From: Hyphomicrobiales bacterium
GTDB lineage: Bacteria; Pseudomonadota; Alphaproteobacteria; Rhizobiales; Rhizobiaceae
NCBI GenBank assembly: GCA_900469625.1
Contig: UBXV01000007.1
Location: forward strand, 372,001 to 436,000
Direction: 5' to 3'
DNA: 64,000 nucleotides
The notes beneath the pieces were generated by a model. It made no database searches and was not told the DNA's origin. It saw nothing but the letters and a program-made list of their open reading frames with translations. Made by a program: the position numbers and the translations under genes. Shown in pieces: positions 43,236 through 60,492 of this stretch. How positions within the stretch are numbered: the stretch's first letter is position 1; every line of letters starts with the position of its first letter.

Positions 43236-44435
43236 TCAAGCTGCGGCGGTGCCGCTCGCGCTTCTGACGGCTTCGGCCGCGCGCTCGATGCGCGCCAGGC
43301 CTTCGCGTGCCTCCTCCGCCGTCACGGTCAGCGGCGGCAGCAGGCGCAGCACGTTCTCGCCGGCCGGAACAGCCAGCAGCCTTTCCGCGCGGATCGCCTT
43401 CAGGAGATCGGCCGAGGGGCCCTTCGCCTTGATGCCGAGCATGAGCCCGTCGCCGCGGATCTCTTCGATCACATCGGGGAAACGATCCTGCAACGAGGCG
43501 AGCCCCTGGCGGAACACCAGGGAAACGTCGCGGACATGATCGAGGAAGCCATCGGCGAGGATGACGTCGAGCACGGCATTGCCGACCGCCATGCCAAGCG
43601 GGTTGCCGCCATAGGTCGAGCCGTGGGTACCGGCAACCATGCCGGCTGCGGCCTCTTCCGTGGCAAGGCAGGCGCCGAGCGGGAAGCCGCCGCCGATACC
43701 CTTGGCGACAGCCATGATATCCGGGCGGATGCCCGCCCATTCATGGGCGAAAAGCTTGCCGGTGCGGCCGACGCCGGTCTGGACCTCGTCGAGGATCAAC
43801 AACAGGCCGAATTCGTCGCAAAGCGCGCGCAGCTCCTGCATGAATTCCTTGGTGGCCGGGCGAATGCCGCCTTCGCCCTGGATCGGCTCGATCAGGATTG
43901 CCGCGGTCTCGTCGGTGATCGCGTCCTTGACGGCTGCGATGTCGCCGAAGGGAACCTGATAGAAACCGGGCGCCTTCGGGCCAAAACCTTCGATGTACTT
44001 CTGCTGGCCGCCGGCAGCGACGGTGGCGATCGTGCGCCCGTGGAATGCGCCCTCGAAGGTGATGACGTGGAACTTCTCCGGATTGCCCTTGGCATAGTGG
44101 TAGCGGCGGGCAGTCTTGATTGCGCATTCGAGCGCTTCGGCGCCCGAATTGGTGAAGAACACACGGTCGGCGAACGTCACGGCCGACAGCCGGCGCGCCA
44201 GGCTCTCCTGGCCCGGAACCTCATAGAGGTTCGACAGGTGCCAGACCTTCTCGGCCTGCGCCTTCAGCGCCTCAACCAGATGCGGATGCGCATGACCGAG
44301 CGAATTGACGGCAACGCCTGCAGCGAAGTCGAGATAGCGCGTGCCGTCTTCGGCAATCAACCAGACGCCCTCTCCTCGCTCGAAACGCAACGGCGCACGC
44401 ATGTAGGTGTCGTAAAGCGGCGTGGTTGCAGTCAT
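43236..44435 (-). CDS. argD: Acetylornithine aminotransferase
   Basis: A 399-residue class III PLP aminotransferase of arginine synthesis. Motifs are [52 protein letters not shown] with the PLP-contacting Asp, and the lysine region [20 protein letters not shown], with the conserved Lys that forms the Schiff base. The ATG at 44435 has GGAGAGGC upstream. It precedes argF, so the two form an argDF unit. The 422 bases upstream carry the gcrA regulatory region, with gcrA divergent. Confidence 0.95.
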
Positions 44436-44674
44436 GGCGAGCCTCTCCTTCATTGCTATCGGCATCGGTCCGCGCGCGATGTTGGGCGCGGCAAAAATTA
44501 AAAATGCCGCCTTGCGGCGGCGCAGGCACTATTCCCATTTCGCAGCGCAATGTCAACAAAACCAAGCCTTGCAGTGCGGTCGCACGACCCTCATCCGTGC
44601 GACGAAAAAATCGTCTCGGCGGGGCTTGCAAAAATACAACGCCCGCCGAGCAAGTTGGGGAAAACCAAGAAATC

Positions 44675-44822
44675 GATTCGGCGCGATTCCGCGGACTCTT
44701 GCCACGGAGTCCGGCGGTCAGTAGGTTAACGTTCAATTACTAGACGCATGCGGCGGACCTAGTCACCAAAAGTGTTATCGCGTTGCAGCTCCGGAACCTT
44801 GCCGGAGCGTGGTGAAAGATTC
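44675..44822. promoter_or_regulatory. Cluster of GANTC (CcrM methylation) sites upstream of gcrA
   Basis: GANTC occurs at 44675-44679, 44685-44689, 44694-44698, 44707-44711 and 44818-44822. Five sites in 148 bases, four of them in 37, is far above the chance rate of one per 256. GcrA and CcrM act together at methylated GANTC in Caulobacter, so this may be a methylation-sensitive control region for gcrA itself. Confidence 0.6.
44726..44740. promoter_or_regulatory. Near-consensus CtrA box upstream of gcrA
   Basis: TTAA (44726-44729), seven bases, TTAC (44737-44740): one mismatch from TTAA-N7-TTAA. It is 118 bases upstream of the gcrA start and next to the GANTC cluster. CtrA represses gcrA in Caulobacter, so the position is suggestive. 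Confidence 0.5.
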
Positions 44823-44857
44823 TGTCATCGCCAACGCTGAGAACGGAGAGTGCAGAA

Positions 44858-45382
44858 ATGAACTGGACTGACGAGCGGGTGGAAAAACTGAAGAAGCTTT
44901 GGTCCGAGGGCCTGAGCGCGAGCCAGATCGCGGCACAGCTCGGCGGCGTCAGCCGCAATGCGGTCATCGGCAAGGTTCACCGGCTGAGCCTGCCCGGCAG
45001 GGCCAAGGCTGGTGGCACCGCAGCTGCGACCCGGCCGAAGCCGCGCCCGGCCACATCGGCGCCGCGCGCCCCGAACTTCGCCTCGCGCGTCACCACCCGC
45101 ACGGTTACCCGCCCGGCTGGCGCCCTAGTCCTCAAGGAAGAGGTCGAAGTCGATCTCGTCGCCGAACAGGACTTCCACGTCCAGACCGACGTGGTCGTGC
45201 CGATGTCGCGCCGCCTGGAACTGACGCAGCTGACCGAGCGCACCTGCAAATGGCCGATCGGCGACCCGCTGAAGGAAGAATTCCACTTCTGCGGCAACGA
45301 TTCCCCGGAAGCTTCGCCCTACTGCACATTTCACGCGCGGCTTGCCTACCAGCCGTCCGCCGAGCGCCGCCGCGCACGCTGA
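44858..45382 (+). CDS. gcrA: GcrA cell cycle regulator
   Basis: A 174-residue protein with the GcrA N-terminal helix-turn-helix (MNWTDERVEKLKKLWSEGLSASQIAAQLGGVSRNAVIGKVHRL) and a C-terminal core with cysteine and histidine-containing CKWPIGDP, FHFCGNDSPEASPYCTFHARLAYQP. GcrA binds sigma-70 and activates genes with methylated GANTC sites. The gene is divergent from argD and is followed by a strong terminator at 45404. A cluster of GANTC sites and a CtrA-like box lie upstream. Confidence in the family is high. Confidence 0.96.
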   Translation: MNWTDERVEKLKKLWSEGLSASQIAAQLGGVSRNAVIGKVHRLSLPGRAKAGGTAAATRPKPRPATSAPRAPNFASRVTTRTVTRPAGALVLKEEVEVDLVAEQDFHVQTDVVVPMSRRLELTQLTERTCKWPIGDPLKEEFHFCGNDSPEASPYCTFHARLAYQPSAERRRAR

Positions 45383-45403
45383 AGTGGCCGAAGACACGTA
45401 CAG

Positions 45404-45430
45404 AAAAAGGGGCCGACCGGCCCCTTTTTT
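45404..45430. terminator. Bidirectional rho-independent terminator between gcrA and phoB
   Basis: GGGGCC (45409-45414) pairs with GGCCCC (45419-45424), flanked by AAAAA and TTTTTT. It can serve gcrA on the plus strand and phoB on the minus strand, which are convergent. Confidence 0.9.
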
Positions 45431-45451
45431 ATTGCCTGCCGATTGGCCGGC

Positions 45452-59220: not shown

Positions 59221-60492
59221 ATGACGGACAATGCGCGTGTTACGATCTCGACCGAGCTGATGCTGAAAATCGCGGTGATCACCTTGCCCATTGCCCTTTC
59301 CCTTGGGCTTTCAGGTTGCGCCGGCAAGCCGAAGGGCGTCATGGCGCCCGTGGCACTGACCGCGCAGTCACCGAAAACGGCGCAGGTGGAGATGCTGGTC
59401 GCGACCACGCGGCAGCCTTCGGGCGATCCCGCGACACTGTTTTCGGGTGAGCGAGACGCAAAGACGTTCATGACGGACGTTGCAGTCTCGATCCCGCCCG
59501 ACACGGTGCGCAAGGCCGGCACGGTGCAATGGCCGAAAAAATTGCCGCCCAATCCCGCGACCGATTTTGCCGTCACGCGGGTGCGCGAACTCGACACGCT
59601 TGCCGACGGCAAGGCCTGGTTCGAGCAGCACAATGTCGGCGGTCACGCCTTCGTCTTCGTCCACGGATTCAACAACCGCTACGAAGACTCCGTCTTCCGG
59701 CTGGCGCAGATCATCCACGATTCCGGCGCCCAGACGACGCCGATCCTGTTCACCTGGCCGTCACGCGCCAACGTGTTCGAATACAATTACGACAAGGAAA
59801 GCACCAACTATTCGCGCACGGCGCTCGAAGACACGCTGCGCATCCTGTCGGAAGCGCCCAAGGTCAAGGACATCACCATCCTCGCCCATTCCATGGGCAC
59901 CTGGCTGACGATGGAATCGCTCCGGCAGATGGGTATTCGCGACGGCAACGTGCCCTCGAAAATCCAGAACGTCATCCTGGCATCGCCTGATATCGACCTC
60001 GACGTCTTTGCCAAGCAATGGGTGGAGATGGGCAAGAAGAAGCCGAAGTTCACGATCTTCGTGTCGCAAGACGATCGGGCGCTGGCGCTTTCGAGCTTCA
60101 TATCCGGCGACGTCTCGCGCCTTGGCGCCATCGATCCGTCGAAGGAGCCCTACCGCACGGATCTGGAAAAATCCGGCATCACCGCCATTGACCTGACGAA
60201 GGTCGAAACCGACGACGGGCTGCATCACGGCAAGTTCGCCGAAAGCCCAGAGATCGTCCAGCTGATCGGCCAGCGACTGATCAAGGGTCAGACGCTGACC
60301 GATAGCAACATTTCGGTCGGGACGGGTATCGCCGCCGTCGTCGCCGGCACGGCGAGAAACGTCGGCAATGTCGCGGCGACGACGCTCTCGGCGCCGGTCA
60401 ACATCCTCGAAAATCCGCGACCAACGAAAAAACGGCCTGTCGTCGGCGACACGCTGACGGAAAACCAGCAGAAGCCGGCGGCCGTCAACTGA
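59221..60492 (+). CDS. Alpha/beta hydrolase lipoprotein (DUF900-like)
   Basis: A 423-residue lipoprotein with a signal ending in LSLGLSGC. The DUF900-type alpha/beta hydrolase core follows: AFVFVHGFNNRYEDSVFRLAQIIHDSG, the nucleophile in ILAHSMGTWLTMESLRQMG, VILASPDIDLDVF and a C-terminal histidine in DGLHHGKFAESPEI. A long disordered tail (about residues 340-423) follows the domain. The reaction is unknown. The ATG at 59221 has TGGAG upstream; earlier in-frame ATGs lie at 59188 and 59140. It is convergent with kdpE. Confidence 0.87.
   Translation: MTDNARVTISTELMLKIAVITLPIALSLGLSGCAGKPKGVMAPVALTAQSPKTAQVEMLVATTRQPSGDPATLFSGERDAKTFMTDVAVSIPPDTVRKAGTVQWPKKLPPNPATDFAVTRVRELDTLADGKAWFEQHNVGGHAFVFVHGFNNRYEDSVFRLAQIIHDSGAQTTPILFTWPSRANVFEYNYDKESTNYSRTALEDTLRILSEAPKVKDITILAHSMGTWLTMESLRQMGIRDGNVPSKIQNVILASPDIDLDVFAKQWVEMGKKKPKFTIFVSQDDRALALSSFISGDVSRLGAIDPSKEPYRTDLEKSGITAIDLTKVETDDGLHHGKFAESPEIVQLIGQRLIKGQTLTDSNISVGTGIAAVVAGTARNVGNVAATTLSAPVNILENPRPTKKRPVVGDTLTENQQKPAAVN

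Follow-up and report, generated by a model that had tools for sequence, protein, structure and literature searches.

What is a dense group of GANTC sites doing immediately before gcrA, in a stretch of DNA that is otherwise poor in them? In the window, by which we mean the whole 64,000-nucleotide stretch of DNA that was analysed, GANTC occurs 55 times compared to 341.6 (sd 18.6) in shuffled sequences, a depletion of about six-fold, and given this rarity it is striking that four sites are packed into the 37 bp from 44675 to 44711, upstream of gcrA. Together with a fifth site they make five in 148 bp (44675-44822), and a pattern count over the window found both groupings where the first-pass annotation had placed them (Table 1). 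The next densest groups comprise three sites in 50 bp (2532-2581) and three in 58 bp (59666-59723). Both of these smaller groups sit within long open reading frames.

The cluster exceeds what chance produces. When the same 350 bp were resampled with a first-order Markov model, four GANTC in 37 bp were obtained in 1 of 20,000 resamples. Over the 206 genomes compared below, the four-in-37 arrangement was found upstream of gcrA in 45 and the five-in-148 arrangement in 52, and neither occurred in the 822,956 bp flanking gcrA in these genomes; the flanks are probably mostly coding, where GANTC is rarer, which makes this contrast somewhat generous. The stricter comparison is with Markov resamples of the promoter regions themselves, which carry a mean of 0.99 GANTC per 250 bp.

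The gene behind the cluster is the sole PF07750 match of the genome by profile search, and among the best 80 of 582 matches the closest named GcrA proteins are those of Ensifer sp. LC163 (95%) and LC11 (92%). It is flanked by two genes on the opposite strand, presumably argD on the divergent upstream side and phoB on the downstream side. The divergent gene has a sigma70-like promoter match of its own at 44556-44528, more than 100 bp off the cluster, so that the GANTC sites most likely belong to gcrA. The same genome carries a CcrM-like gene, a 378-aa methyltransferase-like open reading frame with a RAMA domain (PF18755, E=3.1e-18).

Table 1. Features at the gcrA promoter (positions in the window; distances relative to the transcription start unless stated otherwise).
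Feature	Coordinates	Strand	Remarks
Conserved element TGGGGAAAA, putatively DnaA-box-like	44656..44664	+	38 bp before bracket (family median)
GANTC site 1 (CGATTCG)	44675..44679	+	about -60; sole YGAKTCK fit among the five
GANTC site 2 (GATTC)	44685..44689	+	about -50
GANTC site 3 (GACTC), bracket left half	44694..44698	+	abuts -35
Predicted -35-like hexamer TTGCCA	44699..44704	+	from sequence; fits S. meliloti start; often TTGTCA in relatives
GANTC site 4 (GAGTC), bracket right half	44707..44711	+	-35/-10 spacer, about -30 to -26
Predicted -10-like hexamer TAGGTT	44722..44727	+	17 bp after TTGCCA
CtrA-like box TTAACGTTCAATTAC (TTAA-N7-TTAC)	44726..44740	+	over -10 and start, about -11 to +4
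Transcription start	44737..44737 (+/-1)	+	carried over from S. meliloti -122 by leader alignment
Probable EcpR1 sRNA binding site GCGGCGGACCTAG	44750..44762	+	13 nt after start
GANTC site 5 (GATTC)	44818..44822	+	5' untranslated region, 40 bases before ATG
gcrA coding sequence, 174 aa	44858..45382	+	ATG 44858; PF07750 E=3.8e-64

To place the sites within the promoter we relied on S. meliloti, where the gcrA transcription start is reported at -122 from the AUG (PMC4414408). The corresponding position in the window assumes that the S. meliloti leader is of the longer congener type, with one extra T compared to the window. A start lying elsewhere would have spoken against the first-pass annotation; the start known from S. 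meliloti falls at the cluster and supports its placing in the gcrA promoter. It also sets on the -35 a pair of sites that we call the bracket, GANTC-TTG-N5-GANTC (44694-44711). The -35 and -10 assignments rest on this start and on conservation: GACTCTTGTCA, in the -35 region, recurs in 69 of 112 family upstream regions, and TAGGTT or TAGTTT was seen by eye at the -10 in many relatives. The -10 is weak, and a consensus promoter scan listed neither the gcrA promoter nor its -10.

In order to follow the cluster among relatives, gcrA upstream regions were collected from the genus (16 genomes), from further members of the family (112) and from the order's other families (78). The family set holds 111 of the 116 GcrA-bearing non-genus genomes (G100, G101, G116, G124 and G125 were left out) and, in addition, G237; the order set holds 78 of 113 GcrA-bearing genomes, the 26 best-ranked and 52 hand-picked down the score list, with 35 left out. 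One duplicate (G044, L084) and one paralogue (the second copy of G106, L155) were removed before counting. At least three GANTC were present in the 250 bp before gcrA in 16/16 genus, 98/112 family and 52/78 order members, while none at all was found in 0, 3 and 9 members, respectively; the genus mean was 5.19 per 250 bp before gcrA compared to 0.15 around the gene. The loss in related species that would have spoken against the first-pass annotation was thus not found. Among named relatives, the best 80 of 582 matches, which lean to close relatives and may overlap the other genome set, 77 have three or more sites, 74 have the bracket and 1 has no site. Pseudochrobactrum has no GANTC in the 250 bp before gcrA. 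For a view beyond the order, 22 of 27 genomes with GcrA found in the class were used, the window's own, four short matches and second copies being left out: here three or more sites were present in 5/22 (mean 1.09 compared to a background of 0.32) and the bracket spacing in 1/22. Set against the high rates inside the order, this indicates that the dense cluster is largely order-specific, though three or more sites occasionally occur outside.

The arrangement of the sites is conserved together with their number. The bracket around the -35 occurs in 16/16 genus, 83/112 family and 30/78 order members, site 4 lying at a fixed 13 bp after site 3, and it does not occur in the 823 kb flanking control; the GANTC-N8-GANTC spacing was found in 130 of the 206 regions, whereas 200 resamples gave 1.2 on average and never more than 5. 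The upstream sites keep their offsets in all 16 congeners and in part of the 83 bracket-bearing family members (site 1, 19 bp before the bracket, in 33; site 2, 9 bp before it, in 29), a GANTC 18 bp before the bracket being present in 41 of these, and the middle base of site 2 is T or A among relatives with GANTC retained. An equivalent of site 5, a GANTC between -50 and -25 from the ATG, was found in 16/16 genus, 91/112 family and 47/78 order members. The feature is real, conserved and well placed, and a cluster so strongly conserved is very likely functional.

Methylation of GANTC by CcrM falls late in the cell cycle. We give a probability of roughly 0.6 to the reading that the stretch is a gcrA core promoter designed to sense how far its own sites are methylated. 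Two GANTC would bracket the -35 at a fixed spacing (GACTC-TTGCCA-CG-GAGTC), and full methylation would put modified adenines against and just downstream of the -35, with weaker use of the promoter by sigma70 RNA polymerase as a result. Fork passage would leave the sites hemi-methylated, and gcrA would fire until CcrM acts again. The upstream GANTC pair, about one helical turn apart, may strengthen the effect or bind another factor, and in Ensifer and some relatives the CtrA-like box over the -10 and the start could add repression. The role of the bracket as sensor, an effect in Ensifer of the same direction as in Agrobacterium tumefaciens, and the binding of CtrA to its box are inferred in this scheme.

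Control of gcrA by promoter methylation is plausible, though already described. According to Martin et al. 2024, gcrA of A. tumefaciens is under repression by CcrM, extra CcrM lowers gcrA mRNA there, and the methylated promoter is less active both in A. tumefaciens and in engineered E. coli, where the effect arises without regulators specific to Alphaproteobacteria; they propose activation of gcrA by hemi-methylation after fork passage (PMC11514494). Earlier, Brilli et al. 2010 had drawn CcrM control of gcrA (PMC2877005). The first-pass annotation had suggested that gcrA may respond to the methylation state of its own promoter through a feedback not previously described: the conserved cluster at the promoter and the A. 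tumefaciens precedent make the response to methylation plausible, while the claim to novelty falls to these two papers and the feedback through GcrA fares no better, as discussed below. The central claim is therefore known already for a close relative; what seems new is the fixed bracket and its sharing with RepE promoters. Neither the -35 bracket nor its conservation is described in the abstract, sections 24-25 and searched passages of the 2024 paper (PMC11514494), and among the freely accessible papers listed on gcrA or repABC methylation no title, abstract opening or searched passage showed a shared or conserved bracket.

The A. tumefaciens promoter is the closest known counterpart. It is orthologous, with 6 GANTC in 250 bp upstream of the gene compared to 5 here, and CcrM is present in both; the difference is that lowered activity on methylation was measured there and is inferred for the Ensifer window (PMC11514494). 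The bracket itself was found in two named Agrobacterium, A. larrymoorei and A. vitis. It would explain in concrete terms how the gcrA promoter could be weakened by methylation in E. coli with no special regulator involved, a point that the 2024 study, as far as its searched passages go, left open (PMC11514494). Another relative in design is P1 of Caulobacter ctrA, described as activated by hemi-methylation; its GANTC lies at about -29 and its CtrA half-site at -14 (PMC4287350). Like the gcrA promoter, where the box is recognised by sequence, it combines a GANTC in the -35/-10 spacer with a CtrA site at the -10; it differs in serving another gene, in the one GANTC that is named there compared to four around the -35 at gcrA, and in its activation by GcrA (PMC4287350), a role that is not favoured at Ensifer gcrA. 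Several observations count against the methylation switch. S. meliloti cell-cycle gene promoters are reported to have no overall GANTC enrichment (PMC8725594), and the strict bracket is missing before gcrA in 29/112 family and 48/78 order members, which speaks against the bracket as sensor. The lack of GANTC in Pseudochrobactrum, the weak -10, the nearly fixed middle bases of the bracket in the family and the low share of sampled repABC plasmids with the strict bracket weigh on the same side.

A first alternative is autoregulation, in which GcrA together with sigma70 would recognise methylated GANTC at the gcrA promoter and thereby activate or repress itself. One GANTC does lie in the -35/-10 spacer, and Caulobacter promoters of this kind are reported to switch on at 40-60 min; in addition, an enrichment of GANTC by factors of 4.4 and 4.7 is described for the GcrA ChIP-seq peaks of B. 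abortus. The Caulobacter GcrA motif, YGAKTCK as quoted in PMC8725594, is matched by site 1 in 16/16 congeners and in 24 of the 33 family members bearing this site, but at about -60 site 1 is outside the core promoter, and neither bracket site fits the motif in any of the 16 congeners, the family counts for the two sites being 0 and 2 of 83. Moreover, the A. tumefaciens promoter loses activity on methylation in E. coli, which lacks GcrA (PMC11514494), and none of the terms for gcrA autoregulation that were searched occurs in the main text of either Fioravanti 2013 or Adhikari 2021. Because the bracket sites miss the motif and the published effect needs no GcrA, the feedback put forward in the first-pass annotation, although possible, is neither shown nor favoured, and we consider it unlikely.

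Local hypomethylation of the MucR type is a model for methylation blocked by a bound protein. By analogy, GANTC could be kept here as part of a protein site, either for a repressor or as the sigma70 -35 context, with methylation incidental or blocked. In favour of this reading, the middle bases of GACTC...GAGTC are nearly fixed in the family (C in 82/83, G in 82/83), which methylation alone would not require and which suggests that something besides methylation also constrains the bracket. The pair is moreover an inverted repeat, with one extra G..C pair in 16/16 congeners; this repeat, however, is unextended in most family members (flanks C..A in 28 and G..A in 26 of 83), and a hairpin formed by GACTC...GAGTC was not adopted, since the pairing fails to extend in most of the family, though it gains one pair in the genus. 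Against this reading, the middle base of the second bracket site at the order level is G in 20, T in 7 and C in 3 members, and the upstream sites swap T for A (6/33 and 2/29 family members) while remaining GANTC. Methylation also alters promoter activity in both A. tumefaciens and E. coli (PMC11514494). A protein site with incidental or blocked methylation appears improbable to us.

The TTAA-N7-TTAC box noticed earlier inside the cluster stretch is indeed there, and it is the only match to TTAA-N7-TTA[A/C] on the plus strand of the window. With a slightly loosened pattern, a CtrA-like box follows the bracket within 40 bp in 16/16 genus members, 17 of the 83 bracket-bearing family members and 1 of the 30 in the order; the box is largely limited to the genus and to some of its relatives, where CtrA input is plausible. 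CtrA repression of gcrA as in Caulobacter, which the first-pass annotation brought up, gains no support from these counts, nor from Brilli et al. 2010, who detected no control of gcrA by CtrA in Rhizobiales (PMC2877005). That the stretch serves mainly for CtrA control, with the GANTC cluster a by-product of shared ancestry, is very improbable: the box occupies the classical repressor position over the -10 and the start in all 16 congeners, but its conservation mostly near the genus, far outreached by that of the bracket, lowers CtrA as the main reading, as does the result of Brilli et al., and the main text of the S. meliloti CtrA ChIP-seq study mentions GcrA only in a ctrA figure legend and in a reference title.

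The bracket occurs in a second setting. In the 16 Ensifer genomes GANTCTTGN5GANTC has 36 sites, compared to 3 for the reversed control pattern: 16 at gcrA (one per genome), 16 antisense between repB and repC, and 4 elsewhere. This division is based on 18 further Ensifer sites that were examined, of which 14 lie on the opposite strand between the RepB and RepC genes and 4 do not, and on two sites of G009 that are also at RepC/RepB. The four sites outside gcrA and repABC are L234, L240, L243 and L250. The window's own genome has exactly two bracket sites, the one at gcrA and one at G000:C74:15976-15993 (L233, 1577-1594), antisense between repB and repC and with a third GANTC at the likely -10. 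The RepE antisense promoter is known to lie at this position. In the family, GACTCTTGN4-6GANTC matched in at least 92 of 121 genomes, and 20/20 non-gcrA sites of the GACTCTTGAC type, picked by hand among the matches listed, were antisense between RepC (RP-C) and RepB; these loci were chosen by the bracket and therefore say nothing on how common it is. From the 60 listed of 2164 RepC matches, 12 named repABC plasmids were chosen by organism; the strict bracket was found in 3 of these, and in 0 of the 3 Rhodobacterales plasmids included. Among the matches listed, G134 has five GACTCTTGAC-type sites besides gcrA (C12, C15, C18, C27 and C58), those on C12, C18 and C27 being at repABC.

A 2018 review describes RepE promoters as rich in GANTC (PMC6090056), and for the A. 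tumefaciens RepE promoter, assayed in C. crescentus, changing two of the three GANTC is reported to have slightly raised activity, the third site overlapping the -10 (PMC11514494). Given that in the repABC loci found here the third GANTC is at the likely -10 and the other two are those of the bracket, the sites M1 and M2 of Martin et al. are probably bracket sites. The RepE (PE) promoter shares with gcrA the arrangement GANTC-TTG-N5-GANTC around the -35, and differs from it in its TTGAC -35, its third GANTC at the likely -10 and the lack of an upstream pair. A tentative reading, which we regard as less likely than not, is that the bracket is a dedicated promoter switch of CcrM sites locked onto the -35, employed in Ensifer almost exclusively by gcrA on the main chromosome and by the RepE antisense RNA of repABC replicons. 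Each would read the replication of its own replicon, and a single methylation clock would couple the replicons. If this were true, gcrA would fire after the chromosome has been copied and the RepE brake would fire on a freshly copied secondary replicon; the shared bracket thereby touches the question of how replication is coordinated in bacteria with several chromosomes.

Another conserved element before gcrA, TGGGGAAAA, is present in 89 of the 112 family upstream regions, and at least six of the seven positions of TGNGGANAA are kept in 126 of 137 anchored promoters. The element includes the complement of TCCCCA, which in Caulobacter is the weak W-box for DnaA (PMC4285127), and outside the genus its departures (T at position 3 in 5/5, T at position 7 in 4/6) go towards TGTGGATAA. 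It is a possible candidate for a DnaA site of the kind that activates gcrA in Caulobacter; the passages of Brilli et al. 2010 that apply a DnaA matrix place a motif ahead of gcrA in just two non-rhizobial species, of Hyphomonas and Maricaulis (PMC2877005). A genome search for a TTGGGGAAAAC regulon gave 2 matches compared to 2 for the reversed control and is thus uninformative, the second match adjoining genes that seem unrelated by eye. NtrX, reported to repress S. meliloti gcrA (PMC9223101), was considered for the conserved CAAGTTGGGGAAAAC block and set aside, the published motif being CAAN2-5TTG and the motif of the gcrA probe CAAACCTTG. At 44563-44571, CAAGCCTTG matches the NtrX motif CAAN2-5TTG (PMC9223101).

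Downstream of the start, the gcrA leader may be subject to a further, post-transcriptional layer. In S. meliloti, where EcpR1 controls the gcrA leader, its site is stated to lie 13 nt downstream of the transcription start (PMC4414408); the start has the same position in the window and a conserved block follows at the same distance, TGCGGCGGA being found at this putative site in 50 of the 112 family upstream regions. An Rfam scan of 44400-45450 gave no match, and the structure z-score of the gcrA leader RNA, -1.42, is unremarkable. On the other side of the intergenic region, a terminator-like hairpin at 44521-44506 on the minus strand lies between the predicted promoter of the divergent gene and its start codon, and could possibly act as a leader attenuator of that gene.
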